Shown piece after piece: positions 9,305 to 14,842 of a stretch of DNA of 17,821 nt. The translations under genes and the position numbers were made by a program. The stretch's first letter is position 1. Each line of letters begins with the position of its first letter. The notes under the pieces were generated by a model that worked only from the letters and a program-made list of their open reading frames with translations, did no database searches and was not told the DNA's origin. Source of the DNA: Muribaculaceae bacterium (GTDB lineage Bacteria; Bacteroidota; Bacteroidia; Bacteroidales; Muribaculaceae); assembly GCA_017545095.1 (NCBI GenBank), contig JAFYCU010000274.1:1-17821 (forward strand). Reading direction: 5' to 3'.

Positions 9305-10120
9305 ATGAACAACGCAGATTTTTGGGCGTCGGTCCGTGCCATCATCGCCGAGGGCTTCACCTCCGAGGGTCTGCAGAAACTGGATTGTTATGCAGCAGGA
9401 TTCATCAGCGGGAAACTGGTATATCAACGATTTTCACCGCAAGAACAGCATGGTTGCGCAGCGGGAGGTCATGCAAATGTCATTGCATCCCTGCTCGCGG
9501 GAACAGAAGTTGGCACAAATCGAGCGTATTCGCCAGCACTCAGCAGTTTCGAAAGAGAGCACCAACAAGGAGCGCAGCAGGAAAGAGCCATAGAGCTTTG
9601 GACCAAAGCCGTGGGGCTTTGGAGCGATGCAGTTGACTAAACATTGCCATTGTTGCTGGGCGAGCAAATCGCCGAAGGCGGAGAAGCCGTTGTCTATGAC
9701 CATGGAGCCACGCTCATCAAATCAATCGGCCTCGATTATTTTATCCAACCCATCTTTGCCCTGGACCGAATCACGCTCCACAACACCTATTTCCCAGAGA
9801 CATGTCTGAACGTAATAGGTTTCGGGCGTGACCAACATGATGACTTCAAAATCATCGCCGAACAACCATTTATCAAGGGCATGCCAGTAGATGAGGCAGT
9901 AATTGCCGAGCATTTGAGGCAAATGGGATTCGAGCTCAAGAATCCGCGCAACTGGACCTATGCCACTCCAGAGATTTACCTGAGCGATATGCACGATGAG
10001 AACGTGATTTCATCAGCTTCAAGAACCATTTTTGTGATTGATTGTGATATCCGCATCAATACACCCGAATTGAGGCAAGGCGGGACAAGAATCTTGACAA
10101 ATGAAGTAAAGTTCATTTAA
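9305..10120 (+). pseudogene. Polyvalent-protein-type kinase domain protein interrupted by one in-frame TAA
   Basis: Read through one TAA at 9638-9640, this is a single 271-codon frame with the same phase on both sides. The first part (111 residues; F-W-A-S-V-R-A-I-I-A-E-G-F-T, E-Q-H-G-C-A-A-G-G-H-A-N-V-I-A-S-L-L-A-G) and the second part fit one family, the kinase-like domain found in polyvalent proteins of Bacteroidetes mobile elements (identified from memory). The second part has a glycine-rich loop (G-E-Q-I-A-E-G-G-E-A-V-V-Y), a following Lys (T-L-I-K), a catalytic-loop-like S-D-M-H-D-E-N-V-I and a metal-site-like F-V-I-D-C-D. The break separates W-S-D-A-V-D from T-L-P-L-L-L-G-E-Q; a Lys codon AAA changed to TAA would explain it. 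No in-frame ATG follows until about 9880, past the glycine loop, so normal restart would not give a full kinase. It is probably a recent pseudogene; suppression of the stop is less likely. Confidence 0.8.
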
Positions 10121-10168: not shown

Positions 10169-10280
10169 TCCGCCAGCGAGGCACCACCTTTGCAGCACCA
10201 TTCGGCAAAATAACCAGCCCCCCTGCCGAAGTTATCGTAGCCTGTTGTTGCACAATCCAGAAAAAAGCGGTAACTTTGCC
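10169..10280 (+). repeat. Promoter-module repeat, copy B
   Basis: The second copy of the block at 9072-9185, 112 bp, directly repeated 1,097 bp downstream. The interleaved inverted repeats are cleaner here: TTCGGCA (10201-10207) with TGCCGAA (10224-10230), and ATAAC (10210-10214) with GTTAT (10231-10235). It ends with the promoter of the WYL regulator gene. Recombination between A and B would remove the broken kinase gene and leave one intact promoter before the regulator. Confidence 0.75.
10248..10278 (+). promoter_or_regulatory. Promoter of the WYL regulator gene
   Basis: TTG (10248-10250), exactly 20 bases, TAACTTTG (10271-10278). The leader to the ATG at 10310 is about 25 bases. Confidence 0.75.
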
Positions 10281-10309: not shown

Positions 10310-11341
10310 ATGCCACAAACCAAGAACTACATAGTGCGTTGCATGGTGCTGGATGAACTACTGAGCGACCTCCATCACTATTACGACATTCACGACTTCG
10401 TGGAAAAAGTGAATGAGAAACTGGAAAGTGATGGTTGTGGAAAGGTGACTCGGCGTTGCATTGAGAAAGACATCAAGTCAATCGAATTTGAACCTTTCTA
10501 CGCTGAGCTTGAACGTTATCAAGCTGCTGGGAAAAGATGCATCCGCTATAAAGATCCGGAGTTCTCCATTTTCAAGAAAAAACTTAGCAAAGACGAAAAA
10601 CTGCTGCTCAAAGAAGTGCTCGGCACACTGGGCCAATTCGACGGACTGGACAATTTCACGTGGCTCGGCTCTTTGGCCTCAGGTCTTGGGGTGGAAACGA
10701 CAGAACCTATCATTGAGTTTAGCACAAGTCCCATGGGGCAATCACCTCTCATGGGCCAATTGTACACGGCCATATCCAATAAGGTGGTGGTGGAAGTCTC
10801 GTATCACAAGTTTCATAACAAAACGTCGATAACAAGCATCCTTCATCCCTACAAACTCAAACAATACAATAATCGCTGGTACTTACTTGGATCACTGGAC
10901 AGTGATGGCTTCATTGTGAATTACCCATTAGACCGCATCAATAACGTCAACATGCGGCCTGAAATCAAGTATCGGGAAAACACCGACGACATCTCGGAAC
11001 GATTTGAGGACGTGATTGGTGTGACTGTTCACAGCGACAGACCTGTGGAGAAAATCATCCTGTGGGCTTCCGATGATGCATATCCCTACATCAAAACCAA
11101 GCCTATGCATGGGTCATTCAAGCCAATAAGGGGTGAAAAAGCCGACCACCTGCGCAAAGAACACCCCAAATTAAACGATGGCCATTTCTTCCAACTCGAA
11201 TGTGTCGAGAATTACGAACTAATCCGCGAACTATGCTCATTCGGAAAAGAACTGCTCGCACTCTCACCCAAGCATATCCAAGACAAAGTTTATGAAAGAA
11301 TTTCATCACACAACAAGGAATATGAATATCTGCGAACATAG
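10310..11341 (+). CDS. WYL-domain transcriptional regulator
   Basis: A 343-residue cytosolic regulator. The N-terminal ~80 residues form a winged-helix-like DNA-binding part (I-V-R-C-M-V-L-D-E-L-L, then V-T-R-R-C-I-E-K-D-I-K-S-I). The WYL domain lies at about 150-225, with the hallmark H-P-Y-K-L-K-Q-Y-N-N-R189-W-Y-L-L-G and Y-P-L-D-R-I; the C-terminal part has WCX-like character. WYL proteins bind a nucleic acid or nucleotide ligand and switch gene expression; several (BrxR, CapW type) control phage-defence loci. It stands directly upstream of the ATPase/partner pair in the same direction, and its stop codon lies in the centre of a palindrome that recurs before a later gene, so it is the natural candidate to control both units. 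Composition is AT-richer than the flanking chromosome. Confidence 0.92.
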   Translation: MPQTKNYIVRCMVLDELLSDLHHYYDIHDFVEKVNEKLESDGCGKVTRRCIEKDIKSIEFEPFYAELERYQAAGKRCIRYKDPEFSIFKKKLSKDEKLLLKEVLGTLGQFDGLDNFTWLGSLASGLGVETTEPIIEFSTSPMGQSPLMGQLYTAISNKVVVEVSYHKFHNKTSITSILHPYKLKQYNNRWYLLGSLDSDGFIVNYPLDRINNVNMRPEIKYRENTDDISERFEDVIGVTVHSDRPVEKIILWASDDAYPYIKTKPMHGSFKPIRGEKADHLRKEHPKLNDGHFFQLECVENYELIRELCSFGKELLALSPKHIQDKVYERISSHNKEYEYLRT

Positions 11342-11348
11342 TGTTCGC
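11332..11348. promoter_or_regulatory. Palindromic operator candidate, copy 1 (before the ATPase operon)
   Basis: GCGAACA-TAG-TGTTCGC is a perfect 7-bp inverted repeat around TAG, which is also the stop codon of the WYL gene. It ends exactly 10 bp before the -7 box TAATTTTG (11359-11366) of the ATPase gene and covers the place where a -33 box would be. A near-identical palindrome with the same spacing lies at 14555-14571. Binding by the WYL protein is inferred. Confidence 0.7.
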
Positions 11349-11358
11349 TCAGAGGCAG

Positions 11359-11366
11359 TAATTTTG
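11359..11366 (+). promoter_or_regulatory. -7 box of the ATPase/partner operon
   Basis: TAATTTTG fits TAnnTTTG and lies 26 bases before the ATG at 11393. No TTTG stands 20 bases upstream; the palindrome occupies that place, so the promoter may be weak alone or controlled by a bound regulator. Confidence 0.6.
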
Positions 11367-11392
11367 CAGCGAAGACTTAAAACGAACAAATT

Positions 11393-13612
11393 ATGAAGTC
11401 AACAATAACAATAAAGAATTTTAGGACATTTGATGAAGATGGCGCCTGTTTTGAAATGAGGCCGATCACTATAATGACCGGCAGCAACAGTTCTGGCAAA
11501 AGCAGTGTCAACAAATCTTTGGCACTACTTAAGACTTACGTTGACAGTGTGAAAGAAGATTTGCGCAAGGGGGTAACACCAAACTTGTCAGCCCACAAAC
11601 TGGATTTTTCGAAAACATCCGCCACACTTAATCTTGGCAACTTTCATCAAGTTCTTCATCGCGGAAGCAAGGAAGAGTCTATTTCATTTGAGGTAACGAC
11701 TCATTCAAGGCTATTAGGAGAGGATGTGGTGGTCGAACTCACATTTATACCTGACCCAAATGATATTCAAGATAATGGCTACCTAAGCAATCTCGAGATT
11801 AAAAAAGTGAGCGGTGAATTGCTGTACCAGAGTGGGCAAGATAGTGATCATTTCATGGGGAAATATATATCTGCAGGTAACTTCAACTTGCTTAAAGATA
11901 GTTTTTTCAAGTTCTTCAACACCATACTTTATTGGGACATCATTTTTGAGGGCACGCCACTCAACGACGCCCCGGATTTTTATAAATACTTCGCAAAGCA
12001 ATGGGGATATGATACTAATTCCATGGACGATGTCGATTATATATGCAGACATATTTTCAAAGAGAAACTTGAAACTTATAAAACGATAGTCAACGATTAC
12101 AGTCGGGATTATCTAAACGTTGTTAAAGAATTCTGCTATTCCAGTGAGAATATGCTGAATGTTGAGGGCTCCCCTATGGGTGATAATCCGTATATCCGAG
12201 AAGCGCACGAAGTTTTGAACCATAATTATTCCATTTTTGAAAAAGCGTTTCAGTACAATTCTCTTTTTCTCATGCCAGTACTCGAAGAAATATGGGACAT
12301 GGAGAAAACCGAAGTCCGTCAATATCTCATGAGTAATGTTTCAGATAAATATCAGGCTCCGTTAAATATTATAATCGAAGATTTTGAGAAGAGTGAATTC
12401 ACTGCTTTTGGTGAATACTTCAAAGACAAAGAGCGTGAATATTTTTACTTAGATATACGCCGTAAACGTATCTTGACTTTACCTAAAGCCGAGGATTTTT
12501 CCGATTTATTAATGATAAATTGGAGAGATTGGATAAATGATGATGAGATATTACATCAAGCAGAAGATGCTTTATCTCATTTAAAAAGGTTAAGTAAGAA
12601 AAGTGATAAATGTCGCAACATTTATAATGACCTCGCGAGTCTTGACAAAAACGGTCTGATAAAATGGCAAAAGAACGAACTCTGTCACCTCACTGCGATA
12701 CTCGAAATACTTAATCCTAATGCCCAAAATCATCAATATGAATTAGAAGCACTGGATCATTTATATGAGAGTTTCTCACTGTTCACCCACTTTGTTGAGT
12801 GGACATATGAGGACATCGTGGCCACGATGCTGCCAAACGAGATGTCTTATTTTGGCCCAAATTCTGCCGACGTTAAAAGATTGTACACTGAAGGGTCATT
12901 TTTTACAACACTGTCGGCATATTTAGAATGTAAGCGCAGTTTTTTGAATCTGCTATCTGATGATTATGATCATCCACAAAAAGCGAGTTTTATACCGATA
13001 GAAAGCGGATTCAAGCCTGGAGATTTCATCAACAAATGGCTTAAAGCATTGGGCGTTGCTGACGAACTGCTTATCACACAGGTTGAAGACGGATTAGGGC
13101 TGAAAGTGTCAACATTTAACAACAATAATGAAAAGACCTTATTGGCAGATCAGGGTGTGGGTGTAACTCAGTTGGTGGCATTGCTGCTTCGCATTGAGAC
13201 TTTGATTATGGATAATATACTGCACCACAGCAAGATGTGGAGGTCTAGCAATCAAGACGAAGTTCGCTGCGAAAAAAGCCTCATTATACTTGAGGAACCG
13301 GAGATGCATCTCCATCCCAAGTATCAATCGCTGCTTGCAGACATATTCTTGGAAGCTTACGAGAAATATAATATTCACTTTATCGTTGAGACTCATTCGG
13401 AATACCTTATCCGCAAATCGCAAGTAATTGTGGCTGAGGCAAATTATGCTGATGAAAAGGAATTAAATGCGGAAAATCCTTTCATGGTTTACTATCTGCC
13501 TGATAACGGCAAGCCATATAAGATGGAATATCGTACCGATGGCAAGTTCTCAAATGAATTTGGGTCTGGATTCTTCGATGAGGCAAGCAACCTTTTATTC
13601 AACATCCTATGA
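11393..13612 (+). CDS. AAA/ABC-type ATPase with DUF3696-like C-terminus, candidate defence ATPase
   Basis: A 739-residue P-loop ATPase of the AAA_15/OLD-like, SMC-related group. Walker A is G30-SNSS-G-K36-S, close to the N-terminus. A long insertion (about 60-570) with helical, charged sequence separates it from the C-terminal half: D-Q-G-V-G-V-T-Q-L at about 586-594 in the signature-motif position, Walker B L-I-I-L-E-E-P-E-M-H-L-H-P at about 630-642, and an H-loop V-E-T-H668-S-E-Y-L-I. The end (M-V-Y-Y-L-P-D-N-G-K...G-S-G-F-F-D-E) resembles DUF3696. Proteins of this build are the sensor/energy component of many two-gene prokaryotic defence systems; no named system is claimed. Its TGA overlaps the ATG of the partner gene (ATGA), so both are made together. 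AT-rich composition suggests transfer. Confidence 0.88.
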   Translation: MKSTITIKNFRTFDEDGACFEMRPITIMTGSNSSGKSSVNKSLALLKTYVDSVKEDLRKGVTPNLSAHKLDFSKTSATLNLGNFHQVLHRGSKEESISFEVTTHSRLLGEDVVVELTFIPDPNDIQDNGYLSNLEIKKVSGELLYQSGQDSDHFMGKYISAGNFNLLKDSFFKFFNTILYWDIIFEGTPLNDAPDFYKYFAKQWGYDTNSMDDVDYICRHIFKEKLETYKTIVNDYSRDYLNVVKEFCYSSENMLNVEGSPMGDNPYIREAHEVLNHNYSIFEKAFQYNSLFLMPVLEEIWDMEKTEVRQYLMSNVSDKYQAPLNIIIEDFEKSEFTAFGEYFKDKEREYFYLDIRRKRILTLPKAEDFSDLLMINWRDWINDDEILHQAEDALSHLKRLSKKSDKCRNIYNDLASLDKNGLIKWQKNELCHLTAILEILNPNAQNHQYELEALDHLYESFSLFTHFVEWTYEDIVATMLPNEMSYFGPNSADVKRLYTEGSFFTTLSAYLECKRSFLNLLSDDYDHPQKASFIPIESGFKPGDFINKWLKALGVADELLITQVEDGLGLKVSTFNNNNEKTLLADQGVGVTQLVALLLRIETLIMDNILHHSKMWRSSNQDEVRCEKSLIILEEPEMHLHPKYQSLLADIFLEAYEKYNIHFIVETHSEYLIRKSQVIVAEANYADEKELNAENPFMVYYLPDNGKPYKMEYRTDGKFSNEFGSGFFDEASNLLFNIL

Positions 13613-14544
13613 GACTATACATTGACAAAGAAAATTTGATCTCGTTGGTTGAATCCAGAAAACATGAATGTTTCGAAGATTGCGCCAGAGTTATTCGCAA
13701 AGAGCTTGATGTTCAATATAATTTCTCCAAACAAGATATACGGTCAAATGACTTTTTAATATCTTGGTTTAGTCAATTTGGACAAGGCATCAAAGGTAAA
13801 CAGAGCTTTGTTCCTGAGAATTCAGCCAATGTTGTTCCTCCGAGACCTTTGAAATCAAATTTTTATAATAGAGATTCGAGTGCTCTAACGGCTATATATC
13901 TGTTGAATGATGCTCATATTTGTGATGTTGTTCAACAGAAATCATGTGTTCTTGTTGGAAAAGTTGGTGACGAAATAAAAATTCTATCAAGCTTGCTGAT
14001 TGAAGACAAGGAAACACTATCGTCACAAATTGACTCTTGGAAGAATTATTGCCCAACCCTACCACTAACTGATGTTATTATTTGTGATAATTTTTATTTT
14101 AAAAATCTGGAGACATATAGCAGCAATGATAATGAGCTGATAAAAGCATTAGCCAGCATTCCCCATCAATCACCTGTGAATGTTGTTATATTTACCAAAA
14201 TAGGAGAAGTTGATAGCAGCATTAATCTGGACAACGAACAGAAGAAAATTTCTGGAGTTGTGAAAGAAGTGACTGGTAGCAAAAAGTCGTCTGTTACAAT
14301 CGTTCTTTCATATTCCACACATGACCGGTGTATAATCACGAATTATTATCGTATTAAACATGGCAGTTGTTTTCATTTAAAGGACAATAATTTGAAGCCT
14401 GATGTTATTACAGAGATTAAATCGCACGTGAATCGCAACAATGAAAAAATCACGCAAGATCTTATCGGAACTTTTCAGAAAATCATCGACAAATTGCCAG
14501 ATTGTATTGGCGATAAAAAATCAAATTTTTTGTGTTTCCCATGA
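13609..14544 (+). CDS. Partner protein of the ATPase, unknown function with H-D-R...T-N-Y motif
   Basis: A 311-residue soluble protein that overlaps the ATPase gene by four bases. I know no named family, though the pattern recalls hypothetical proteins next to AAA ATPases in Bacteroidetes. The N-terminal part starts M-R-L-Y-I-D-K-E-N-L and has helical sequence to about 60. The central part alternates beta strands and helices (V-L-V-G-K-V-G-D-E-I-K-I-L, then T-D-V-I-I-C-D-N-F-Y-F, then V-N-V-V-I-F-T-K-I). Near 230-250 comes T-I-V-L-S-Y-S-T-H238-D239-R240-C-I-I-T244-N245-Y, followed by K-H-G-S-C-F. An H-D-R element at the end of a strand is also seen in the phospholipase-D-like MIT_C fold, so a PLD-like domain is possible, but no HxK motif is visible. 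In this two-gene arrangement it is the candidate effector or target-recognition part (inference). Confidence 0.8.
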   Translation: MRLYIDKENLISLVESRKHECFEDCARVIRKELDVQYNFSKQDIRSNDFLISWFSQFGQGIKGKQSFVPENSANVVPPRPLKSNFYNRDSSALTAIYLLNDAHICDVVQQKSCVLVGKVGDEIKILSSLLIEDKETLSSQIDSWKNYCPTLPLTDVIICDNFYFKNLETYSSNDNELIKALASIPHQSPVNVVIFTKIGEVDSSINLDNEQKKISGVVKEVTGSKKSSVTIVLSYSTHDRCIITNYYRIKHGSCFHLKDNNLKPDVITEIKSHVNRNNEKITQDLIGTFQKIIDKLPDCIGDKKSNFLCFP

Positions 14545-14554
14545 GTCAAGGATT

Positions 14555-14571
14555 GCGAATATAGCGTTCGC
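14555..14571. promoter_or_regulatory. Palindromic operator candidate, copy 2 (before the acidic-protein gene)
   Basis: GCGAATATAGCGTTCGC matches copy 1 at 15 of 17 positions with the same TAG centre; the outer arms extend to TTGCGAA/TTCGCAA (14553-14573). It ends exactly 10 bp before the -7 box TAACTTTG (14582-14589), the same spacing as copy 1. Its two changed bases weaken the inner arms. A terminator role for the preceding operon cannot be excluded, but no T tract follows. Confidence 0.7.
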
Positions 14572-14581
14572 AACTTGGTGG

Positions 14582-14589
14582 TAACTTTG
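14582..14589 (+). promoter_or_regulatory. -7 box of the acidic-protein gene
   Basis: TAACTTTG fits TAnnTTTG. As in the ATPase promoter, the -33 position is taken by the palindrome and holds no TTTG, and the bases after the box (CAG-T/C-G) also match that promoter. Confidence 0.6.
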
Positions 14590-14635: not shown

Positions 14636-14842
14636 ATGACTATGGCTTTTGAAGACGACATGATTGATGCTGGGTTCAACGACCCAATGGACTACATGGA
14701 TTACCTGATGGATGATGGCGACCGCCGGATGCAACGAATGCTTGAATATGAGGAACACTGCAACTCGGACGATTATGAGGAGGAACCTGAAGAAGAATAT
14801 GATGAGATTATTTTTGATGACTGGGAGGACTGGGAAGATTGA
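14636..14842 (+). CDS. Small, extremely acidic protein of unknown function
   Basis: A 68-residue protein in which 29 residues are Asp or Glu and only three are Arg, with no Lys. The acidic residues cluster at the C-terminus (Y-E-E-E-P-E-E-E-Y-D-E-I-I-F-D-D-W-E-D-W-E-D), mixed with aromatic residues; the first half holds M-D-Y-M-D-Y-L-M-D-D. There is no signal peptide or membrane segment. I recognise no family. Such charge is typical of DNA-mimic or nucleic-acid-competing proteins, but also of disordered tails, so no function is claimed. It has its own promoter with the same palindrome as the ATPase operon, which ties it to the upstream genes by regulation. An ATG at 14642 is a possible alternative start. 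Confidence 0.75.
   Translation: MTMAFEDDMIDAGFNDPMDYMDYLMDDGDRRMQRMLEYEEHCNSDDYEEEPEEEYDEIIFDDWEDWED

Follow-up and report, generated by a model that had tools for sequence, protein, structure and literature searches.

Paired palindromes form a recurrent operator-promoter composite beside a WYL-domain regulator gene in a Muribaculaceae island

Introduction

Why should two transcription units of one bacterial island be preceded by nearly the same palindrome, at the same distance from the promoter, and which protein reads it? The question arises from a stretch of 17,821 nucleotides of a Muribaculaceae bacterium (assembly GCA_017545095.1, contig JAFYCU010000274.1), called the window below. The original prediction, made from this sequence alone, proposed that one regulator, probably the WYL-domain protein encoded in the island, controls both units, either as a repressor or by replacing a missing -33 contact.

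WYL regulators described elsewhere provide precedents for both modes. DriD, an activating HTH-WYL protein of Caulobacter crescentus, uses a pseudo-palindrome that lies over a poor -35 element at a single distance from the -10 in its promoters (PMC12340889, preprint). PafBC allows the primary sigma factor to use promoters lacking the usual -35 contact, by way of a -26 motif (PMC11804915), and the activator SiwR of Mycobacterium smegmatis binds a palindrome between -35 and -10 (PMC10693628). CapW, the repressor of CBASS operons, has palindromes that overlap the -10 (PMC9122588), and the first site of the BREX repressor BrxR lies after it (PMC9122601).

Results

Genes of the island

The WYL-domain transcription regulator (343 aa; 10310..11341, + strand) is the putative binder of the palindromes, judging by its Pfam WYL domain and its clade-specific operator. 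The WYL domain itself is well above threshold (PF13280, 45.7 bits, cut-off 21.8), and the C-terminal WCX domain falls under it (PF25583, 21.2 bits, cut-off 23.9). AlphaFold2 models residues 7-80 as a winged helix-turn-helix of three helices and two strands (pLDDT mostly 86-91), and Foldseek and VIA-align return near full-length alignments to DriD and PafBC; with a pTM of 0.43, the packing of the domains is uncertain. Foldseek ranks DriD and PafBC chains 1-13 with DriD at the top, CapW 14 and BrxR 19, with TM-scores to DriD below 0.5 for full chains, and the VIA-align scores (DriD 14.6 to 11.2, BrxR 12.5, PafBC 12.1, CapW 11.7) do not separate activators from repressors. By sequence comparison with the PDB, PafBC is also the closest entry (E 0.002, or 2e-8 with a profile), over residues 142-336 only.

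Downstream lies the gene for an AAA_15/AAA_21 ATPase of 739 aa (11393..13612, +), whose best PADLOC match is the NsnB model (5e-35). No PADLOC Nsn model is matched by the WYL protein or by the partner protein, and the three genes of the Menshen system, NsnA, NsnB and NsnC, are not found together here. The partner (311 aa; 13609..14544, +) has a predicted phospholipase-D-like fold at residues 131-309, based on an AlphaFold2 model with a pLDDT of 94.6 and on Foldseek and VIA matches to PLD-family structures. PLD enzymes carry an HxK motif, at the place of which the partner has H238 and R240, both invariant in the family alignment. The family search found 124 proteins, and no Pfam domain is listed for any of the 120 shown. 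A reading frame behind the second palindrome encodes a small acidic protein of 66-68 aa (14636..14842, +; pI 4.1) that has no match among plasmids at E 1. Family resemblance and genomic company suggest that these genes may serve in defence. A Kinase-PolyVal domain protein is encoded just upstream of the island (9644-10120), and a YhcG gene lies far from it (1094-2188).

Two palindromes in one promoter geometry

The first palindrome, GCGAACATAGTGTTCGC (11332-11348, +), and the second, GCGAATATAGCGTTCGC (14555-14571, +), are both 17 bp long and, as had been noted, agree at 15 of 17 positions with a shared central TAG. In the first copy this TAG (11339-11341) is the stop codon of the WYL gene, which ends inside the palindrome. 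Exactly 10 bp separate each palindrome from a -7 box, TAATTTTG (11359-11366, +) for the ATPase unit and TAACTTTG (14582-14589, +) for the acidic-protein unit, followed by CAGCG and CAGTG respectively. The two 10-bp spacers are identical at only three of ten positions. The WYL gene's own promoter (10248..10278, +) is of the ordinary type: it has TTG exactly at the -33 place (10248-10250), the box TAACTTTG at 10271-10278, and no operator. Allowing up to three mismatches to the palindrome, the window holds three matches, representing the two places with one read also on the other strand; shuffles of the window gave a mean of 0.21 matches, and none of 200 reached three.

Both promoters had been said to lack a -33 TTTG, the palindrome covering its place, and the ordinary promoters of the studied loci bear this out. 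Across 112 TAnnTTTG promoters, a set without the palindromic ones, TTG is most frequent 23 bp upstream of the box (21%, against 5% at 22 bp). The operator occupies the positions from 27 to 11 bp upstream of the box, with its centre at 19 bp, so that its left half, rather than its centre, lies on the -33 element. The 29 operator promoters have no TTG at the -33 place by definition of the pattern. Their -7 boxes are stronger than those of ordinary promoters (C at +3, 86% against 41%; C at +8, 100% against 57%), and they may therefore work unaided.

Recurrence in related genomes

The pattern CGAACANAGNNTTCG, a gap of 4 to 25 bases and TANNTTTG was sought in 201 genomes of a related family. Operator and TAnnTTTG box together gave 23 matches in 16 genomes, and all 23 have the gap of the window despite the range allowed; the spacer bases vary freely. 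Reading the pattern backwards gave no match in the same genomes. The two palindromes are thus copies of a recurrent operator-promoter composite and not a product of chance. That two promoters merely resemble each other by chance, or that one was recently duplicated, might be suggested by the presence of just two copies in the window; the shuffles, the unlike spacers and the recurrence in other genomes leave this a negligible probability, and the reading is refuted by that recurrence together with the sites found at every window-type WYL gene (below).

Loci with a window-type WYL gene hold 21 of the 23 sites (14 of the 16 genomes). In the other two genomes, G006 and G095, no window-type WYL gene was detected at E 1e-20, and relaxing the threshold for their two loci brought up nothing better than E 0.15. 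Each carries a full composite (L096 6215-6231, +; L097 9890-9906, -), with frames behind it that look HD-like and HAD-like by eye; these may be orphan sites or belong to another regulator.

Among 2.9 million viral contigs the composite pattern was matched 32 times, once at the gap of the window, which is chance level. The palindrome alone matched exactly in nine viral stretches; these had no TAnnTTTG box within 30 bp and no WYL match at E 1e-5, and were rejected as chance occurrences. The viral contig L135 has a full composite at 387-420, and the stretch examined has no WYL match.

Sites at the ends of WYL genes

A WYL search of the 201 genomes returned 24 genes of at least 41% identity (in 23 genomes, 14 with a strict site), and 30 genes of at most 37% plus one fragment. 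Adding the window and locus L067 to the 24 gives 26 window-type WYL genes, at least 39% identical by full-length comparison. Every one of the 26 carries a site in the window geometry at an end of the gene, which in 25 cases matches class A with no more than three mismatches and in L200 matches a variant. On a stricter count, a site stands just before the WYL gene in 20 of the 26 loci, at its end in 15 and at both in 10.

These 26 loci (366,169 bases) were scanned on both strands. Of 48 operators with at most one mismatch, 44 are followed at 10 bp by an exact box; for the remaining four, the box at this distance carries a single mismatch. With two mismatches allowed there are 73 operator-like places, 56 with an exact box and 17 without, and 13 of the latter have no box at all within 30 bp and look like background. 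On eight of the loci the real consensus has 17 matches, whereas none of 20 shuffled versions has more than one.

In 11 of the 26 loci the WYL stop codon lies within the operator. Read in frame, its left half is CGA ACA TAG, encoding Arg-Thr-stop, and this fits the Arg-Thr C-terminus of 76 of 120 WYL proteins (P0014-P0133, with P0014 that of the window; the best 120 of 2232 matches), a comparison made at the protein level. In two loci a DUF1016/YhcG nuclease gene separates the WYL gene from the operator that follows (L067 2888-3898; L194 6787-7797, -), and L070 has, by eye, a short DUF1016/YhcG piece in the same place.

Operator class follows WYL clade

When 65 WYL proteins are placed on a tree, class A operators are restricted to one clade with 100/100 support that includes the window (26 rows, comprising 25 of class A and the variant L200). 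Across the whole tree the operator labels require 14 changes, where shuffled labels require 35.8 on average. The palindromes of other clades differ, GTTCAnnTAnATTGAAC and ATGMAGAAAACCTGCA being examples, and five operator classes differing in sequence converge on one place. A scan for inverted-repeat symmetry, which uses no operator sequence, finds a peak only at the window spacing. Symmetry is present there for 35 of the 46 boxes belonging to the window's clade and for 25 of the 49 boxes belonging to 39 WYL genes outside it; for the latter, the 27 other distances score 2-9 of 49 each, and over both groups the counts at the other distances range from 0 to 9.

Among those 39 genes, 23 have a pattern B-E site in this geometry and 16 have none, including L056, L173 and L001, where a palindrome stands at the right distance from an imperfect box. 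Patterns B-E were composed after the palindromes of the other clades had been seen, so their counts are descriptive. In 101 genomes a loose class D pattern was matched 21 times, over gaps from 8 to 18, with six of the matches at 11 (reversed control 4), and a class C/E pattern gave 23 matches, six at gap 11 (reversed control 3); both are less specific than class A and make a weaker test of spacing. In the class D orthologues L178 and L180 the spacing is two bases longer, and outside the window's clade the fixed-spacing rule is not absolute.

Linkage of sites to WYL genes, covariation with clade and the palindromes of other clades at the same gap together indicate that the WYL protein is almost certainly what binds the palindromes, as far as sequence can tell. 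The proposal that one regulator, the WYL protein, probably serves both units is likewise strongly supported by the 21/23 linkage, by the match to a clade of 100/100 support, and by the matching pairs of some relatives (below).

Genes behind the operators

Eleven of the 26 window-type loci encode a retron-type reverse transcriptase (L095, L098, L104, L105, L107, L170 and L195-L199). In ten of these (L095, L098, L104, L105, L107, L170, L195, L197, L198 and L199) the operator starts 281-532 bp before the reverse transcriptase, leaving room for a putative retron RNA; Rfam, run on the gap of L105, gave only matches under the gathering scores. Eight loci have an ATPase of the window's type, three a HATPase-domain protein (L099 and L101 by Pfam, L103 by its similar N-terminus) and four other genes. 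The HATPase-domain protein of L099, L101 and L103 has about 780 aa and is accompanied behind the operator by a partner of 356-372 aa. The L099 pair has no PADLOC match and may be an unnamed defence system.

A small acidic ORF of 47-68 aa with a pI of about 4.1 stands directly behind the operator in four loci, namely the window, L054 (12530-12709, -), L095 (6804-6947) and L170 (3199-3396), which means that the window is not alone in having such a gene. By eye, the ORFs of L054 and L095 are alike and that of the window is not clearly related to them. One might guess that such a protein acts as a brake or a decoy.

Paired sites within one locus

The partner family led to further loci ordered WYL, ATPase, partner, with a type I restriction operon next in L001, L002, L004 and L016, among others (hsd names are those annotated in L016, or are given by similarity to that locus). 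Both gaps were read in 11 loci including the window, and in ten of them a candidate operator stands 10 bp before a -7-like box at the ATPase unit and at the unit after the partner; L063 has no candidate pair. The two operators of one locus agree at a mean of 13.3 of 17 positions, against 9.4 of 17 between loci, a difference reached in none of 20,000 permutations; the best pair of candidate boxes (up to two mismatches) was picked in each locus from 2 to 45 pairs, which favours a locus's own pairs. The pair of L057 agrees at only 9 of 17. Seven loci (L001, L002, L004, L016, L056, L057 and L063) consist of a WYL-ATPase-partner module followed by type I restriction genes, and a candidate operator of the local type also precedes hsdM in these modules, weakly in L057 and not in L063.

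The expectation that the palindrome would precede homologues of both genes thus holds in part. Matching pairs occur in several relatives, but of the seven window-type loci that have the ATPase and a complete partner gene, three (the window, L067 and L100) carry a site immediately downstream of that gene, and L052, L054, L069 and L070 carry none there; L102, cut by the contig end, was left out of this count.

Discussion

Of the two modes originally proposed, we favour ligand-dependent activation by the WYL protein at both promoters, with a probability of roughly 0.6. In the proposed mechanism, the WYL protein would bind the palindrome, probably as a homodimer, on the -33 place of two promoters that have no -33 element. 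A ligand arising from phage attack or DNA damage and recognised by the WYL domain would trigger it, and the ligand-bound protein would hold RNA polymerase, substituting for the absent -33 contact. The operon of the ATPase and its PLD-like partner and the acidic-protein gene would in this way be switched on together.

The preference for activation comes from the geometry, which resembles that of DriD in that a palindrome covers the -33 place and keeps a constant distance to the -7 box, and is unlike that of CapW and BrxR. In other respects DriD differs: it shares about 12% identity, responds to ssDNA and acts from a 20-bp site at sigma-73 promoters of DNA-repair genes, whereas the sites here are of 17 bp, at Bacteroidota -33/-7 promoters of apparently defence-like genes. 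PafBC is likewise a WYL activator that adapts sigma to promoters without a -35 contact, but it is a heterodimer in which PafB reads one -26 motif, and here there is a palindrome. SiwR is a homodimeric activator with a 19-bp imperfect palindrome beside its gene; it differs in that one operon is described, with DinB-like targets. Ordinary -33 to -7 spacing is called variable in Bacteroides thetaiotaomicron (PMC7366714). One spacing kept across regulators with differing operators suggests contact with the polymerase, and together with the position it favours replacement of the -33 contact over repression, at the level of promoter architecture.

That the WYL protein instead represses both units by covering the -33 region, until a phage-derived or DNA-damage ligand releases it, is a less probable but serious alternative. 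CapW and BrxR, the two defence-operon WYL regulators compared, are both repressors, and they resemble the present case in standing beside defence genes with palindromic or inverted-repeat sites, BrxR with two sites in one island (PMC9122601). In 20 of the 26 loci, on the stricter count, the WYL gene is itself preceded by a site, as it would be under negative feedback; the -7 boxes are strong, and polymerase might equally be blocked by a dimer sitting on the -33 place. The described sites of CapW and BrxR, however, overlap or follow the -10; here the site lies 10 bp upstream of the box in the window, as at 44 of the 48 near-consensus sites. A further difference of BrxR is that its homologues are mainly proteobacterial. 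Repression has to accommodate five operator classes of differing sequence at one place, promoters with no -33 element to block, and a WYL gene in the window whose ordinary promoter has no operator. A different host regulator acting on the palindromes would explain the two of 16 site-bearing genomes in which no WYL gene was detected, but this is very improbable given the 21 of 23 sites that share a locus with a window-type WYL gene, the tracking of operator class with WYL clade, the site at all 26 window-type genes and its position across the stop codon in 11 of them.

Titles and abstracts on WYL proteins in Bacteroides, Bacteroidetes or Bacteroidota, on WYL proteins with retrons, and on BrxR and CapW, with subscription journals mostly outside the search, describe no such promoter architecture. 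Activation by the WYL protein can be extended to a broader picture, for which we put the chances at about even: in Bacteroidota, members of a large WYL family may adapt the primary sigma factor from within islands, with a palindrome peculiar to each clade that lies mostly on the -33 place and at one fixed distance from the -7 box. A single infection signal would then reach retrons, ATPase/PLD-like pairs, type I restriction systems and small acidic proteins whose promoters are otherwise incomplete. The composite gives a readable sequence rule for genes switched together in defence-like islands, namely palindrome, 10 bp, TAnnTTTG, and since such genes sit directly behind it, the rule can be used to find new defence genes. 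It would place retrons, along with further probable defence genes, under one common sensor, and how such genes stay silent until needed may become a simple question of spacing.
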